Below, one piece after another: positions 1 through 32,600 of a stretch of DNA of 32,600 bases; the first letter of the stretch is position 1; the number at the start of each line of letters is the position of its first letter. The DNA lies in the NCBI GenBank assembly GCA_023485445.1, contig JAMCZT010000006.1, forward strand, positions 1-32,600, written 5' to 3'. The notes under the pieces are model-generated. The model was not told the DNA's origin. It did no database searches and was given only the letters and a program-made list of their open reading frames with translations. Source of the stretch: Patescibacteria group bacterium (GTDB taxonomy: Bacteria > Patescibacteriota > Microgenomatia > Woykebacterales > 2-01-FULL-43-14). The position numbers and the translations under genes were made by a program.

Positions 1-2
1 TC

Positions 3-170
3 CACTATCAGGATCTGTATCCCGATATTGAGTTGTTAAGAGGATACTGTATGGCCTTTAACCAAAAGTACAACTACAGGAGATTTCATCAATCTCTAGG
101 CTATCAAACACCGGCAGAATATGTTAAAAGTAATGTAGTAACTAAGGAGCAAGTGTTACGTCATGTATAG
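3..170 (+). CDS. IS transposase, C-terminal end (partial)
   Basis: The first reading frame is open from the window edge to TAG and gives 55 residues. It carries the signature of the C-terminal part of the integrase core of IS3/IS481-type DDE transposases: an N-x-x-Y-N-Y-x-R-x-H-Q-S-L-G-Y-x-T-P-A-E-Y pattern at residues 20-41. The rest of the gene lies upstream of the window, so I cannot tell whether the element is intact, nor its exact family. It sits just before the rpmH promoter, where the dnaA/oriC side would be expected in many bacteria, so the element has probably inserted near the origin. The identity as a transposase end is seen in the sequence; the family is an inference. Confidence 0.85.
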   Translation, partial: HYQDLYPDIELLRGYCMAFNQKYNYRRFHQSLGYQTPAEYVKSNVVTKEQVLRHV

Positions 171-185
171 GTCCTGCACAAGTGT

Positions 186-8376: not shown

Positions 8377-8404
8377 TTTGCTTTTTTGCCGTTTTTTAGA
8401 GTAC

Positions 8405-11883: not shown

Positions 11884-12876
11884 TTAGAAATGCAGGCTGG
11901 GATCGGCTTTAATCTTTTGCCAGGGTTTGGGTTGGTAGTTGAAATAGGCACAAGCCGCCACTATAGCGGCGTTATCGGTGCAAAGATTAACGGGAGGAGC
12001 CAAAACCTTTCCTTCAAACCTTTCCGCCATTTCCTTTCGGAGGAGTTTGTTGGCGGCCACTCCGCCAGCCAGAAGAATTTCTTTGACTTTATACTTCTTT
12101 GCGGCGTGAATAGTTTTACTGACTAAAACATCAACTACAGCGGCTTGGGTGGCGGCAGCAAGGTTGGAGGTTTGGGTTGGCGAAAATGGTTTTGTTTCAG
12201 TAAGCAGCTTTACTTTATTTAAGACGGCAGTTTTGAGTCCACTAAAACTAAAATCTAGGTCAGGAGAATTAATCATCGGGCGGGGGAGCGGGTAGGTATT
12301 TTTATCTCCGCTTTCCGCTGCTTTGGCGATCATTGGCCCTCCTGGGTAACCAAGGTTAAGGAGACGGGCGATTTTATCAAAAGCTTCCCCGGCAGCGTCG
12401 TCTTTAGTTCCGCCAAGCCATTTAAATTTGCCGTAGGTCTTCATCAAGATTAGGTCTGTATGCCCCCCTGAGACGAGCAGAGCCACGTTTGGGAAAGTAG
12501 GGGAGTCTTTACCGAGCCAATTGGCGTAAATGTGGGCTTTTAGATGGTTTACCGGAATAAGAGGTTTGTTCCATACATAAGCTAAGGTTTTAGCCGTTTC
12601 GACGCCGATGAGAAGTGAGCCGATGAGGCCTGGGCCAGAGGTGACGGCCACCGCGTCAATATCGGTTGGTTTAAGATGGGCGGAAGCAAAAGCTTTTTTG
12701 ATGACGGGAATAATTGCCTTGAGTTGCTCCCTGGCGGCTATTTCAGGGATAATACCTCCGATTTTAGCGTGTATTTTTACCGAAGAGGAAACGACGTTGG
12801 ACAATATTTTTGCTCCATTTTCAACAATTGCCGCTGAGGTTTCATCGCAACTAGTTTCAATCGCTAAGATTTTCAT
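11884..12876 (-). CDS. tsaD: tRNA N6-adenosine threonylcarbamoyltransferase TsaD
   Basis: 330 residues, standard for TsaD (Kae1/YgjD). It transfers threonylcarbamoyl to A37 of ANN-decoding tRNAs, working with TsaB, TsaE and TsaC. ASKHA fold signatures are visible: I-E-T-S-C-D-E-T at residues 6-13, the metal-binding H-x-x-x-H in V-N-H-L-K-A-H-I near 110-117, L-V-S-G-G-H-T near 133-139, and D-F-S-F-S-G-L-K-T-A. The C-terminal part contains a G-G-V-A-A-N segment. Partner genes are not in the window. The ATG lies 6 nt after a TAAAAT box. It is 49 nt upstream of valS. Confidence 0.97.
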   Translation of the reverse strand: MKILAIETSCDETSAAIVENGAKILSNVVSSSVKIHAKIGGIIPEIAAREQLKAIIPVIKKAFASAHLKPTDIDAVAVTSGPGLIGSLLIGVETAKTLAYVWNKPLIPVNHLKAHIYANWLGKDSPTFPNVALLVSGGHTDLILMKTYGKFKWLGGTKDDAAGEAFDKIARLLNLGYPGGPMIAKAAESGDKNTYPLPRPMINSPDLDFSFSGLKTAVLNKVKLLTETKPFSPTQTSNLAAATQAAVVDVLVSKTIHAAKKYKVKEILLAGGVAANKLLRKEMAERFEGKVLAPPVNLCTDNAAIVAACAYFNYQPKPWQKIKADPSLHF

Positions 12877-12975: not shown

Positions 12976-14169
12976 TTGTCAACCTCGGTTACGGTGACTT
13001 GGACGACCGATAAGTCTTCTGATTCTTACGTAGAGTACGGCCTTAGTTCTTCTTATGGAACAGTCTCTGGAAAAGATGAATCAAGTTTATCTCATTCCGT
13101 CACGGTCACCGGGCTCTCTCCTTCCACTACTTATCATTTCCGGGTAAAGTCTAAAGACTCTGACGGTAATACGGGAACCAGCAATGACTCTACCTTTACC
13201 ACCAAGGATAAGTCTGTCATCACCGAGGTAACCATCTCTGATATTTCCCTAAACTCCGCCATTCTTTCCTGGACAACCAATGTCATCTCTAAATCTAACG
13301 TTAAGATCGGGACCAAGATAAACAGTTACGATAAAGAAATTCAAGAAGAATCAACGGATAAGACCTTAAACCATGTCGCCAGAATCAAAGATCTAGCCGA
13401 GGGGACTAAGTATTACCTAAGGATAGAAGGAACTGACGGGGACGGAAACAATATTACTTCCGATGACTATCCATTTTCAACAGTTTTTCTTCCAAGAATT
13501 TCTAATATTGAAATTAAGGGTTCCGATGATCATTCCCTAACTATCACTTGGCAAACAAATGTTCCTTCAGATTCGGTTGTTTCTTTTGGCAAAGAGTTGG
13601 AGAAATTAGAGACGGATAAAGGAAAAAGCGACTTAGCGACAAACCACGAGGTAAAGTTAGCTGGTTTAGACGATAACACTAAATATTACTACAAAGTTAA
13701 ATCTCGCGATAAGTACGGTAATATTTCACAATCAGCGGTTAAGGAGGCTTCTACTTCAATGGATAATATTGCCCCGGTGATTTCCGAAGTCAAATCAGAG
13801 TCGGTCATTGTCGGAGATGGTAATTCTTCGAGAATTCAGATGATCGTTTCCTGGCAAACAGATGAACCAGCGACATCGATGGTTGAATACGGCGAAGGGA
13901 TTACCTCAAATTACACTAATAAAACTAACGAGGATTCTAAACTAGCTCAACCCCACCTAATTATTATCAGCGGTCTGAAAGCTTCCACGACTTACCACTT
14001 TAAGGTTTCTTCGTCAGACCAAGTTGGTAACCGTTCTGTGTCGTCAGAGTACACGATCCTTACTCCTCAAAGAGAAACGTCCACTCTTGAACTTATCCTA
14101 AAATCTTGGGAAGAGACTTTTGCTTGGGTTCAAAACCTTAAGAAAATTGTTCCTCTTTGGCCGCTTTAA
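12976..14169 (+). CDS. FN3-repeat surface protein fragment, paralog of the giant protein's C-terminus
   Basis: 397 residues from a TTG codon; the frame is open from 12946 but has no ATG or clear ribosome-binding site. It holds four fibronectin type III-like domains of about 85-95 residues, each with T-V-T-W-x-T-D strands and an S-T-T-Y-H-F-R-V type ending. There is no signal peptide or membrane helix. The whole product aligns with the last 400 residues of the 1717-residue protein encoded at 25973-31126. The match includes the C-terminal tail K-S-W-E-E-T-F. Homology begins only at L-S-T-S-V-T-V, right at the proposed start. It is therefore a 5'-truncated copy: a decaying partial duplicate, a sequence donor, or a secreted-domain remnant. 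A promoter precedes it. Confidence 0.65.
   Translation: MSTSVTVTWTTDKSSDSYVEYGLSSSYGTVSGKDESSLSHSVTVTGLSPSTTYHFRVKSKDSDGNTGTSNDSTFTTKDKSVITEVTISDISLNSAILSWTTNVISKSNVKIGTKINSYDKEIQEESTDKTLNHVARIKDLAEGTKYYLRIEGTDGDGNNITSDDYPFSTVFLPRISNIEIKGSDDHSLTITWQTNVPSDSVVSFGKELEKLETDKGKSDLATNHEVKLAGLDDNTKYYYKVKSRDKYGNISQSAVKEASTSMDNIAPVISEVKSESVIVGDGNSSRIQMIVSWQTDEPATSMVEYGEGITSNYTNKTNEDSKLAQPHLIIISGLKASTTYHFKVSSSDQVGNRSVSSEYTILTPQRETSTLELILKSWEETFAWVQNLKKIVPLWPL
13118..13361 (+). repeat. 244-bp stretch identical to an inverted copy at 26790-27033
   Basis: Every base from 13118 to 13361 equals the reverse complement of 26790-27033 (paired coordinates sum to 40151). I compared the two base by base. Immediately outside, the sequences differ at many silent positions although the proteins stay alike. 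Confidence 0.95.
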
Positions 14170-14185: not shown

Positions 14186-14800
14186 TTACTCAATTTCCTT
14201 TGGCTCAAACTCTTGCCGGCTTGGGTTTTCGTCAAAGGTCGTTGGGGTCGGAGATCCTGGGTGACCGGCGTAGCTTTGATGCTCGAGCCTAGATGAAATC
14301 CGCTTGCTAGGGAAAAGATAACGCTTAGGGTTTTTATCCAGGTCGATAAATTCGTCTACCTCAGGAATCAGTTTTCCAGAAGTGCTTTTTCCAAAAGCCA
14401 TTACTTCGATTCGATGGCCTTGGTTTCGCAGGTATTCCAGCAGGGGAACGTAATCTCCATCCCCAGAGACTAAAACCATTACGTCGAGTTTTGGTCCAAG
14501 TCGGATCATGTCAATTGCGATTCCGATGTCCCAATCGCCTTTTCTCACCCCACCCGGGAAAATTTGGATGTCTTTAACCTTGACCTCAAAACCAGCCTTT
14601 TCTAGGGCGTCAAAAAAGCTTTGCTCTTCAGGCATAGCGGCTTTGATACCGTAAGCGATGGCCCGAATTAACTGACGTCCACCGACAGCCGTTTCTAAAA
14701 TTTTGCTAAAGTTTACTCTAGAGCTGTAGAGGTTGCGGGCGGAATAATACATATTTTGGACGTCGACAAATACGCCGACACGTTGGTTAATATTTTTCAT
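14186..14800 (-). CDS. NYN (LabA/DUF88-like) domain protein, putative ribonuclease
   Basis: 204 residues from the ATG at 14800. The NYN/PIN-like fold is recognisable from its acidic residues: D in V-F-V-D-V-Q-N-M-Y near residue 11, K-G-D-W-D-I-G-I-A-I-D in the middle, and V-S-G-D-G-D-Y-V-P-L near 110-119. The family is thought to cut RNA with a metal ion. The C-terminal 40 residues are polar and probably disordered. The gene begins 11 nt after the VanW gene's stop and is probably co-transcribed with it. GGAG lies 14 nt before the ATG, a long spacing. An in-frame start at 14848 inside the VanW gene is less likely because the domain begins at the later ATG. Confidence 0.85.
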   Translation of the reverse strand: MKNINQRVGVFVDVQNMYYSARNLYSSRVNFSKILETAVGGRQLIRAIAYGIKAAMPEEQSFFDALEKAGFEVKVKDIQIFPGGVRKGDWDIGIAIDMIRLGPKLDVMVLVSGDGDYVPLLEYLRNQGHRIEVMAFGKSTSGKLIPEVDEFIDLDKNPKRYLFPSKRISSRLEHQSYAGHPGSPTPTTFDENPSRQEFEPKEIE

Positions 14801-14811
14801 ATGATAGTATT

Positions 14812-16701
14812 TTACTCCTTTGTGCCAACTAAGTATACTGCCTGCCAAGCTTTATATCGTGAAAAGAACTTATCCGAGATGATAACTTCTCCGTTTCGGG
14901 TGACAGCTCGAGTGAAGGAAGCGTCTGCTCCCCAAGCGGCCCAGTCAATTTGCTTGGTTGTGCCTTTTGGTAAAGTCGGGTCGTCTTGATACAGTGCTGG
15001 GGGAGGGGGGACTTGGTTGCCTAGCCAAAAGTTGCCTACTTCTGACTTCCGGCCATCGAAAGTGCCGTAAATTTCAAAGGTTAGGGAATAATTAGCCAGA
15101 TCAGGGATAGCCTGAATAAGGATGTAGCCAGGAGTATCGTTCTTGAACTTAAAATCAGAAGAGGGGAAAAACACGGAGGCGTCTACCCCCGGTGACATAT
15201 CCTGCTCGTAATAACCAACTCGGTAGGCGTGAGGGTAGCGTTCCACTACCGGCAACCCTGAGTTTAAGACCGCTCGAAATAGGGTGGTGGAAACTTGACA
15301 AACTCCGCCACCATAATCAAGTTTGGTCCGACCGTTGGAAATCACGTAGGCTTCCTGGTATCCTGTCGAGCCGTCTACCTCGCCGATAGTTTTATACATC
15401 GAGAAAGTTTCTCCCGGAGCGATCAAAGCTCCGTTAATTCTGCTGGCGGCCAAGCCAACGTTATAAACTCGGCTTGGAATCGAGTGCGCAAATTTGGAAG
15501 TCCCTCGCCCGAGTAACTCTTTAATATTAAAATTACTCACGTTTTCATTAGTAACCGTGGGGTTTTTGATATTAACTGGAAGATCAACTTCCTCCTGACC
15601 GTCTTCCAAGGTGGTTGTGATTTTTTCAACCGCGGCTGTTTCGTCTAGTTCCCTCCCCACTTTATGGGGGACGAAGACGGTCACTTTTCCGTTTTCAAAT
15701 TTAAACTTCGCGTCAACCGGTTCTTGGTTTATTTCCTTAGCAATATTTGAAACCGTTTCTTTGATTTTTTCTTGGTTTAAGTTTACTTTCAAAATCGCTT
15801 TAACGTCTCCTCCCCCCCTACTATCGGCAGCATAAATACTTTTTATTTCAAAGTTTTTCCCGCCGATGGAAAAGCGGAAAGCTGGAGTAATCTCTTCCTT
15901 TTGAGTTGAAAAACTAAGGAAGGAGGAAAGTTGCTCCTTTCCAAGTGCCCAAGCTTTATCTTGATATCGTAGGGTTAGTGGGTGAGAAAGAATTTTTTCC
16001 GTTTCTTCCCGTGCTTTGAGGGCGTTGTCTTCTGTGGTAATTGGATTAGCTGGGCGCACGCTAAGGCTGACTGCAGTTGAGGAGAGAGAAGATATGGCTT
16101 GTTTAATTTTTTCTTTAGCTTCAGACCGGTCTAAAAGAACTCCTGTTTTAGCTGGCGAGATCTCGACCTTTTCCACGCTAATTTTTATGCTCGCATCGAC
16201 CGGAGGGTTATCTACCTCCTTGGCTAAGTCACGAACAGTCTTTTCTAAAGCCTCGTCATTTAAAGAATAAATCGCCTCGAAATTCACGCCTTGAGTGAAA
16301 GATTGCCATTTATCTTCAAAATTAAGAAGAGGGTTTTTTCCTCGGCCGAGGTTAAAGCTGAGTTGAGCTGTCGCCGAGGCGTCGTAAGTGACTTCTAAAG
16401 TGGAAAGCGGTAAAGTCTTATTTTTTCCGTTGTAACTTAAAGTCAGACTTTGAGCTTGGAAGGATGAAACTTGGGATTGGAGCAAGCGGTTAGCTTCTTC
16501 TAAAGTTAAATTTCCAAGATGAAGATTTCCGACCTTGACTCCGGGGTATATTTTGTTTAGGTAAGCGAGATGGTAAGCGATCAAACTAGTGGAGATTAGA
16601 ATAAAAAGTAACGCTAAAAAAGTGATGGCAGTTTTCTTGAAAATAAATTTTATGACTTCGCTTTTGCTTATTTTTCCTTTAACTTTAGACTTTTCTTTCA
16701 T
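14812..16701 (-). CDS. VanW family protein with YoaR-like peptidoglycan-binding repeats
   Basis: About 629 residues. A short basic cytoplasmic tail and one membrane helix lie at about 20-43, followed by a long extracellular part. Two related modules of about 120 residues resemble the YoaR-like putative peptidoglycan-binding domain. The VanW domain occupies about 430-560, with N-x-x-x-A-A-S-R-I-N-G, A-P-G-E-T-F-S and the hallmark Y-G-G-G-V-C-Q-V-S-T-T-L. A C-terminal beta module follows. VanW takes its name from vancomycin-resistance clusters, but its biochemical role is unknown; here nothing suggests resistance. I use ATG 16701; a TTG at 16710 would add three residues. The 1-nt-scale spacing to the NYN gene implies one transcript. 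Confidence 0.88.
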   Translation of the reverse strand: MKEKSKVKGKISKSEVIKFIFKKTAITFLALLFILISTSLIAYHLAYLNKIYPGVKVGNLHLGNLTLEEANRLLQSQVSSFQAQSLTLSYNGKNKTLPLSTLEVTYDASATAQLSFNLGRGKNPLLNFEDKWQSFTQGVNFEAIYSLNDEALEKTVRDLAKEVDNPPVDASIKISVEKVEISPAKTGVLLDRSEAKEKIKQAISSLSSTAVSLSVRPANPITTEDNALKAREETEKILSHPLTLRYQDKAWALGKEQLSSFLSFSTQKEEITPAFRFSIGGKNFEIKSIYAADSRGGGDVKAILKVNLNQEKIKETVSNIAKEINQEPVDAKFKFENGKVTVFVPHKVGRELDETAAVEKITTTLEDGQEEVDLPVNIKNPTVTNENVSNFNIKELLGRGTSKFAHSIPSRVYNVGLAASRINGALIAPGETFSMYKTIGEVDGSTGYQEAYVISNGRTKLDYGGGVCQVSTTLFRAVLNSGLPVVERYPHAYRVGYYEQDMSPGVDASVFFPSSDFKFKNDTPGYILIQAIPDLANYSLTFEIYGTFDGRKSEVGNFWLGNQVPPPPALYQDDPTLPKGTTKQIDWAAWGADASFTRAVTRNGEVIISDKFFSRYKAWQAVYLVGTKE

Positions 16702-25972: not shown

Positions 25973-28900
25973 TTAAAAAGGCCATAAAGGAATAACTTTC
26001 TTAAGATTTTGAACCCAAGTAAAGGTTTCTTCCCAAGATTTTAGAATTAGTTGAAGGGTTGAAACATCTTTGGGAGGAGTTAAGACTGTGTATTCTGTAG
26101 ATTGGGATTGGTTACCGATTTTATCTTTAGAGACGACTCTAAAGTGGTAGGTCGTGGAAGGTTTTAATCCCGAGATAATCACAATGTGAGATTGGTTTAA
26201 AGTTGAGTCTTGGGTTGTGTGGTTAGAGTAAATACTATTCCCTAAGCCTATGCCTTCGTCATAGTCTACTTGAGAAGTGGCTGGTTCATCTGTACTCCAG
26301 CTAACAATGATTTGGATTCTTGAAGTTTCTCCACTTCCCACTAAGGAAGCTTCAGATTTAACTTCTGAGATGGCTGGAGGAGTGGTATCGGTGGAAGTAG
26401 TGACTTCTTTGACTTCTCCTTCCCCTAAGTTACCAAATTTATCTCGAGATTTAACAAGGTAGTAGTATTTAGTGTTATCATCAAGATTAGTTAATTTAAT
26501 CTCATGGGAAGTTACTTGATCTGATTTTCCTTTATCAGTGTCAAGTTTGTCTTGAGTCTTTCCATAAGAGATGGTTGCGTCAGAGGGGACATTAGTCTGC
26601 CAAGTAATGGTCACGGAATGATCATCAGTTCCTTTAACTTTAACGTTAGTAATAATTGGTTTAGAAATAGTTGAGAAAGGATAATCATCAGAAGTAATAT
26701 TATTGCCATCTCCGTCTGTCCCAACAATTCGAAGGAAGTATTTTGTTCCTTCAGCTAGATCTTTAATTCTAGCCACATGATTTAAAGTTTTATCCGTTGA
26801 TTCTTCTTGAATTTCTTTATCGTAACTGTTTATCTTGGTCCCGATCTTAACGTTAGATTTAGAGATGACATTGGTTGTCCAGGAAAGAATGGCGGAGTTT
26901 AGGGAAATATCAGAGATGGTTACCTCGGTGATGACAGACTTATCCTTGGTGGTAAAGGTAGAGTCATTGCTGGTTCCCGTATTACCGTCAGAGTCTTTAG
27001 ACTTTACCCGGAAATGATAAGTAGTGGAAGGAGTTAGTCCAGTCACAGTCACGGAATGAGATAAAGTGGATTCATCAAGGCCAGTGTTAGTTCCGTAAGA
27101 AGCGGTTAGTCCGTATTCAACATAAGAATCAGAAACTTTATCAGTATTCCAAGTAACCGTGACTGAGGTGGAAAGAGCCGTAACCGTTGGGCCAGTTCCG
27201 GAGATATTCGGAGGAGTGGTACTGGCTTTAGCTAACGAAGCGGTGGTAAAGGAAGACGGAGAGGAGTTAGTCTCCGGATAAGAAGAATTACCAGATTTAA
27301 CTCGGTAGTAGTAAATGGTACCGGGGGTGAGACCGGTTAGCAAAACGGAGTGGTCGGTGTTGGAAGCGGTGCTTGATTCACTCCCTATCGATCCCAGAGC
27401 GGAGGTGGTTCCGTAGTCGACTTCTCCACCGGCATTTTCTGAAGTTTTCCAGGTAACGGTAACTGAGGAGGTGGCGATATTGACCGTGACCGCATTAGAA
27501 ATAGTCACATTAGAAGAAGTAGTGAAAGTTTTGTTTTCTTCTAAAGTGGAAGTCTTGGTTTTTCCTTCAAAGTTGGTGACGGAGGTGGCGCGGACACGGT
27601 AGTTGTAAGTCGTCCCGGAAGTGAGACTAGTTAAAGTAATGCTGTGGGGATTTTGGCTGGAGACAGCGTCTACCTCCCCCAGGGTTTTCTTGGTACCATC
27701 AGTAATCCAGTAATCAACGTAACCGTAAGCCACGTCTGAAGTATAAAAGGTAAAGGTCGCAGTAGTCGAAGTAGTCGAGATGGAGATGGTGGTATTGCTG
27801 GATAAAGCCGGGGGAGAGATATCACCCACCGAAGGAGCAGCAGAGATAACCGAAGAAAGAGTGGAAGCATTATTAAGTTGATCGACGCTCCCCACCTTGT
27901 AGTAATACCTTTGGTTCTGGGTTAACCCTTGATCAAGGTAATAAGTCGTGTTCGAATTATTAATCGTCGCCACAACGCTTCCGTTACTATTGGAATCGGT
28001 CGAGCGATAAACTTGATAAGAGGCAAAATCGTTATCAGGGTCACCTACCTTCGACCAAGAAAGAATTAAGCGATAATTCCCGTTGGCCAAATCGGAAATA
28101 TCGGCGATTTTGGGGCTGGTGGGGGTAGGGGACGTATTATCATAAACAATTACGTCCGAAGCCATCGCGCTGACGTTACCGGACGAATCTTTAAATTTAA
28201 CGTAAATGGTATTGACTTGATTGCTAGAAGAGGTGCGAAGTGGATAAGCCGATTTCGTGGCCACGTAAGATTCCCAAGAAGAGTTAGTAAAGCTAGAATC
28301 ATTGGTGGAAAGCATCAGGTACTTACTGGAATCGTTGTCGGTCGCGTCTAAGCTTAAAGTCACGGCCGCCGTGTTGGTCCTTTTGGTTCCACTGATGGTG
28401 ACAGAAGAGGTAGCGGTAATGCTAATCGAGGGGGAGGTAGGCGCCTTCGTATCAATGACCACTGTCGTGGCGGCAGAAGCAGTGGTGTTTTTGAGAGAAT
28501 TCCCGTCATTAGCGAAAGTTCGCAGGTAATAGTTGGTTTGATCCAGGCTAGAGCCTAAGTCTGTTTTGACGTTCCACATCGCGATGTAAGTGGTAGAGCT
28601 TTGATGGATCCCGGTCAAGGCAATCACCCCGGCGGTCACCGTCTGACCACTTTGAGAGACCGTGGCCGCGCTAGACCAGTTAGCGTTATCCGTGGAGTAT
28701 TGGATAGTGACACTTACTAAGCCATCGTCCGCCCCGTTGCACACTCCAGAATCAGTGCAGAGCCCATCCTCGCTATCAGATAAGGTGTAGTTTACTGTCA
28801 TAATTCCTGTTCCGTCTGTCGCTAGAGAGGCAGCGGTGGTAGCCACGACCGGAGGAGTATTTTGGACGTAAGAAACAGTCACTTCATTTAAAGTCGGAGT

Positions 28901-32461: not shown

Positions 32462-32600
32462 TTATTTCCCGCCTAAGAAAGGTATCTTGGAAACCCAAGA
32501 GAAAGTATCTTCTAGAGATTTGACGATCAGGTCAAGGACAGACTTGGAAGCCTTGGAAGTGATGACGACGTTATCTTCAGAGTAAGTGGTATTACCCGCC
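32462..32600 (-). CDS. C-terminus of another surface protein sharing the conserved tail (partial)
   Basis: 45 residues are readable before the TAA; the rest lies beyond the window. The last 25 residues (V-L-D-L-I-V-K-S-L-E-D-T-F-S-W-V, then I-P-F-L-G-G-K) align with the C-terminal tails of the giant protein and the FN3 fragment. The pattern is L-x-L-I-x-K-S-x-E-x-T-F-x-W-V followed by a proline and hydrophobic residues. It is 73 nt upstream of the PEGA/SH3 gene on the same strand. The protein is probably a third member of the same surface-protein group. Confidence 0.7.
   Translation of the reverse strand, partial: AGNTTYSEDNVVITSKASKSVLDLIVKSLEDTFSWVSKIPFLGGK

Follow-up and report, generated by a model that had tools for sequence, protein, structure and literature searches.

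Introduction

The question raised by this locus is why two FN3 surface-protein genes, lying in inverted orientation on one contig and differing from each other at many silent sites, share 244 consecutive bases without a single mismatch. The window analysed here, 32,600 bp long, is the whole of contig C29 in the draft genome (G000) of a tiny uncultured bacterium related to Candidatus Woesebacteria, a draft of 0.9 Mb in 43 contigs with a completeness of 88.6%. Giant surface proteins of Patescibacteria-type bacteria are probably involved in host-cell contact. In Patescibacteriota, the reshuffling of giant exoproteins by homologous recombination has been suggested from domain patterns, with antigenic variation raised as an open question (PMC11809585), and a hypervariable repeat gene has been described in a Gracilibacterium (PMC6851277).

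The evidence brought together below indicates that the shared patch most probably records a recent interlocus gene conversion among three or more dispersed giant FN3 paralogs, members of a lineage-specific family. In searches across the genus, the family and the order, the long C-terminal match was confined to this genome and to that of Candidatus Woesebacteria DeMMO6_50 (G002), which represents a sister genus and is the nearest relative with a giant FN3 gene family. A single scan of viral contigs returned just one distant FN3 match.

The FN3 Fragment as a Remnant of a Giant Gene

The features discussed in this work are collected in Table 1. The giant protein is arranged as an N-terminal membrane-type segment followed by a repeat region, a C-terminal FN3 array and a conserved tail (...LQLILKSWEETFTWVQNLKKVIPLWPF), and its closest paralog is encoded by a 2439-aa gene on contig C31 of the same genome (73% amino acid identity over 1070 aa). 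The much shorter fragment, in which Pfam detects fn3 / Pur_ac_phosph_N domains, can be read in an open frame only from 12946 onwards, and the DNA preceding 12976 does not encode FN3 sequence.

Table 1. Position, strand and supporting observations of the window features considered in this work.
Feature	Position	Strand	Observation
tsaD, left synteny anchor of the fragment	11884..12876	-	Pfam TsaD
Remnant of a giant FN3 surface-protein gene, 5'-truncated	12976..14169	+	397 codons, free of internal stops
Second, weaker mosaic patch	12988..13031	+	44 bp identical to G000 C31:13553-13596
Patch S, copy 1	13118..13361	+	In the FN3 fragment, codons 49-129; identical to 26790-27033 inverted
NYN-domain gene, right synteny anchor of the fragment	14186..14848	-	Pfam NYN
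Giant surface protein gene, 1717 aa	25973..31126	-	Pfam; match to the C31 paralog
Patch S, copy 2	26790..27033	-	In the giant gene; likely recipient copy (identity, third-position GC)

Within the window, the fragment is found in the gene order tsaD–fragment–NYN–VanW. In the sister genus, the gene after tsaD is a giant gene that has a start codon and a membrane-type N-terminus and runs off its contig, and contig C4 of that genome opens with the C-terminus of a giant gene, after which come the NYN gene (89% identical) and the VanW gene. Therefore, the synteny tsaD–giant gene–NYN identifies the fragment as the surviving 3' end of a giant gene that occupied this locus. Moreover, as it comes from another genus and another assembly, the same synteny provides independent support for the contig order around copy 1 of the patch. 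It is unlikely that the remnant is expressed as a surface protein.

Silent-Site Identity in the 244 bp Patch

Copy 1 of the patch is the exact reverse complement of copy 2, with 244 of 244 positions matching, whereas the fragment and the giant gene are only 75% identical across the surrounding 1.2 kb. In the codon alignment, 43% of the degenerate codons specifying the same amino acid in both genes are identical outside the patch, whereas inside it 79 consecutive codons of this class are identical, a run for which the permutation value (p <= 5e-5) is the lowest that 20,000 shuffles can return. The same value, p <= 5e-5, is obtained for the patch when the C31 paralog is added as the third row of a three-sequence Sawyer-type silent-site test. 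When a null distribution was built by resampling the flanking codon pairs, the longest exact match had a median of 16 bp, a 99.9% value of 33 bp and a maximum of 42 bp in 20,000 draws, compared with the 244 bp observed. Silent identity of this kind, confined between diverged flanks and shared by non-allelic copies, is the pattern expected of interlocus gene conversion. The patch lies where the shared C-terminus is most conserved, in the C-terminal FN3 array, and no further significant run of silent identity was detected between the intact giant genes in the part tested, their shared C-terminal region of ~1,000 aa.

These results bear out several claims of an earlier, sequence-only reading of the same DNA, which had described the 244 inverted identical bases, the many silent differences between the two paralogs around them and, correctly, the point past 13361 at which the protein remains unchanged while third positions differ. 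The examination of silent sites along the alignment that it proposed places the run in the patch beyond the shuffles, both pairwise and with three sequences.

Third and Fourth Paralogs

A third copy of the patch is located at G000 C26:8200-8401, where 201 of 202 bases match 13120-13321 and the sole mismatch, at the equivalent of 13206, is silent. This copy sits in a 2059-codon gene that runs off its contig, which ends at 8401 inside the patch. The left edge of identity agrees within about 8 bp in the fragment, the giant gene and the C26 gene, a coincidence that independent conversion events would not be expected to produce and that hints at either a preferred end point or an effect of the assembly. 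The fourth paralog, encoded on C31, exhibits ordinary divergence at the patch (76% identity), yet its protein differs there at about 8 of 81 residues. Therefore, constraint at the level of the protein or of the DNA cannot explain the identity of the other copies, and the earlier argument that selection on the protein does not account for silent identity holds, given that C31 has diverged at silent sites while encoding nearly the same protein. The fragment also shares a 44 bp block with C31 (Table 1), for which the permutation values, uncorrected for multiple tests, are p = 0.003 pairwise and 0.011 with three sequences.

As regards the structure of the assembly, contig ends in G000 overlap by exactly 127 bases, which is the mark of a de Bruijn-type graph with k = 127. 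Contig C26 ends 115 bases past the last distinguishing base, where a graph overlap would predict 127, and an interpretation of this end as a fork in a k = 116 graph was ruled out by the contig-end overlaps. The right part of the fragment was also considered as the missing C-terminus of the C26 gene, a candidate set aside because the synteny in G002 favours the assembled order.

Probable Direction of Transfer

The base composition at third codon positions offers an indication of direction. Third-position GC amounts to 0.49 in the patch, compared with 0.29 in the flanks of the giant gene (Fisher p = 8e-4) and 0.39 in those of the fragment (p = 0.13), and the C31 paralog shows no such jump, with 0.31 at both patch and flank positions. 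Since the patch is in this respect unlike the flanks of the giant gene and like those of the fragment, the giant gene would likely be the recipient, and a sequence of the fragment/C26 type the donor.

Recurrence in the Sister Genus

In G002, the paralog ends on contigs C31 and C5 are identical over three blocks of 99, 78 and 49 bp, and the stretches between them contain many silent and amino acid differences (permutation p = 1.5e-4 with the first block, at the contig end, left out). Another pair of paralogs in the same genome, on contigs C4 and C26, shares 99 bp at yet another position. Such patchwork identity, placed differently in a second genus, agrees with the expectation for recurring gene conversion. 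Moreover, because the identical patches of G002 are placed elsewhere in the genes of this family, it is unlikely that one particular site is constrained at the DNA level. Thus, the comparison with related genomes that the sequence-only reading had recommended in search of shuffled FN3 segments revealed that this relative has identical blocks of its own, elsewhere in the gene. Its view of recent recombination as the cause of the identity is well supported by the contrast at silent sites, the direction suggested by third-position GC and the independent patches of G002.

Alternative Explanations

The identity might be an artefact, with a short-read assembler having filled or collapsed near-identical segments of paralogs, in which case either the identity itself or the joins to its flanks would be false. 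At 244 bp, the repeat exceeds the k of the graph and must therefore have been resolved by paired reads, and assembly could have erased a small number of silent differences. Furthermore, contig C26 stops within the patch, the three copies share their left edge, and the contigs of G002 also break inside the giant gene family, with shared ends of 99 bp. However, the C26 copy retains its own silent difference within the patch, so that for at least one copy the assembly drew on that copy's own reads, and the tsaD–FN3–NYN order of copy 1 is backed by the synteny and assembly of another genus. The complete blocks of 78 and 49 bp in G002, in turn, lie in the interior of contigs and are shorter than the apparent k of about 99, and thus they are not contig-end overlaps, while a shift in third-position GC is not expected from random misjoining. 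On balance, an artefact is considered unlikely. Purifying selection on the DNA or RNA of the patch, acting as a regulatory or recombination site, is an explanation of virtually negligible probability; the patch edges do coincide across three paralogs, but in C31 24% of the DNA positions differ over this stretch although the encoded protein remains about 90% identical, which largely refutes such a constraint, and the sister genus carries its identical blocks elsewhere in the same protein. A diversity-generating retroelement was rejected as well, since only a remnant of a reverse transcriptase was found and the differences between fragment and giant gene outside the patch span all six kinds of change and are not A-specific.

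Silent-cassette antigenic variation is exemplified by the pilE/pilS system of Neisseria and by vlsE in Borrelia, and the sequence-only reading had suggested that the truncated gene could serve as a donor cassette of this kind. The fragment would then be a silent and promoterless donor that rewrites expressed giant genes, leading to pilS/pilE-like antigenic or host-range variation. As in those systems, converted tracts are common to full-length surface-protein genes and to a copy that is truncated at its 5' end and apparently not expressed. In addition, the fragment keeps an open frame of 397 codons despite its truncation, seems, from its third-position GC, to be the donor and matches two or three other paralogs in mosaic fashion, and recombination-driven reshuffling of giant exoproteins has been a matter of speculation in Patescibacteriota (PMC11809585). 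Nevertheless, instead of an array of cassettes serving one expression locus, there is a single truncated remnant alongside several full-length loci (the giant gene, C26 and C31 all carry start codons), and the tract, rather than being concentrated in variable exposed segments, falls in the conserved C-terminal FN3 array. The fragment descends from a giant gene at a conserved locus, the exchanged region is the one that is most conserved, with about 8 of 81 residues differing from the unconverted C31 paralog, and the exchange is not limited to the fragment, as C26 also shares the patch, nor is there any excess of patches in the shared upstream part of the intact giant genes. A dedicated cassette function is therefore unsupported, and programmed variation of this type appears quite improbable. 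The earlier reading had also noted that the inverted pair could flip the DNA lying between its members. Indeed, exact inverted repeats flank 13.4 kb, a geometry that fits a crossover inverting this segment and swapping the C-terminal ~270 residues between giant gene and fragment, and the two C-termini involved in such a swap differ from each other at roughly one residue in three. Synteny, however, supports solely the assembled orientation for copy 1, and the 13.4 kb segment holds housekeeping genes (chaperonin, Lon-type protease). No invertase was present among the window ORFs scanned, and no recombinase adjacent to the repeats was identified by Pfam in 19 proteins, comprising 18 window ORFs and the gene on C26, the two tyrosine recombinases of the genome being located away from the window on contigs C1 and C39. 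Hence, an inversion switch is extremely improbable. It is also quite doubtful that a recombination network connects the giant genes of this lineage, with the left edge at 13118 as a fixed end point within the FN3 array that would allow loci to exchange C-terminal modules and with the 13.4 kb inverted pair functioning as a C-terminus switch driven by homologous recombination.

Probable Gene Conversion and Its Significance

In the course of events proposed for gene conversion, a segment of the fragment/C26 type would have replaced the matching segment of the giant gene by non-reciprocal homologous recombination, through a presumably RecA-dependent mechanism. The machinery for homologous recombination is represented by an intact recA gene at G000 C10:44482-45270. 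The outcome would be a mosaic gene, in which old flanks that have diverged at silent sites surround 244 bp of fresh identity. The 5' part of the giant gene at the tsaD–NYN locus would have been deleted, with the leftover 3' end still able to exchange sequence, and the exchange would represent passive concerted evolution rather than programmed switching. Since the tract falls in the most conserved C-terminal part and would change roughly 8 of 81 residues, it acts mainly to homogenise the genes and to a lesser extent to diversify them.

This case has in common with interlocus gene conversion in other bacterial paralogs a short and sharp tract of silent identity, dispersed paralogs, recA and mosaic genes. 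Unlike conversion described elsewhere, it involves one draft genome together with mosaic blocks in one relative, and the left edge is identical in three copies. Within the literature searched, no direct precedent was found for gene conversion in Woesebacteria/Patescibacteria, and no paper was found that resolves conversion tracts in giant surface-protein genes. The proposal of reshuffling in PMC11809585 deals with the same phylum and likewise with giant, repeat-rich surface proteins with shuffled domains for which homologous recombination was suggested; however, it was deduced from domain patterns, whereas here a conversion tract is resolved at the nucleotide level. The gene reported in PMC6851277 is likewise a CPR surface-protein gene whose variation disturbed assembly, although in that case repeats (9-mers) vary within one gene, whereas here the exchange takes place between dispersed paralogs. 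The present case also helps to account for the assembly breaks inside the giant genes of this lineage. It supplies a nucleotide-level tract with a direction, adds a third gene that takes part and includes tracts specific to a second genus, which makes the suggestion of reshuffling (PMC11809585) testable in existing read sets.

Additional Observations on the Gene Family and the Genome

Several features of the giant genes and of the draft genome lie outside the patch. The N-terminal repeat region of the giant gene contains an exact direct repeat of 76 bp (ORF bases 744-819 and 1272-1347, EWRIEKRDKTTGALVSAFG units), and a similar internal repeat of 50 bp is found in the C26 gene. At the right end of the contig, window positions 32483-32596 (-) encode the C-terminal tail of a further gene (SVLDLIVKSLEDTFSWVSKIPFLGGK), which is a diverged version of the tail common to the giant proteins (STLQLILKSWEETFTWVQNLKKVIPLWPF) and may represent a common anchoring or sorting tail. 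The reverse-transcriptase remnant mentioned above, which carries an internal stop, is situated at G000 C41:67740-67979, about 5 kb from FN3-coding sequence. Finally, many contig ends of G000 fall into four groups with shared end sequences of 127-182 bp, each comprising about 7 to 12 ends. The group to which window positions 1-181 belong encodes the tail of an IS3-like transposase (...YRRFHQSLGYQTPAEYV...), recognised by eye, and the grouping of the ends suggests that several high-copy insertion sequences are present in this 0.9 Mb genome.
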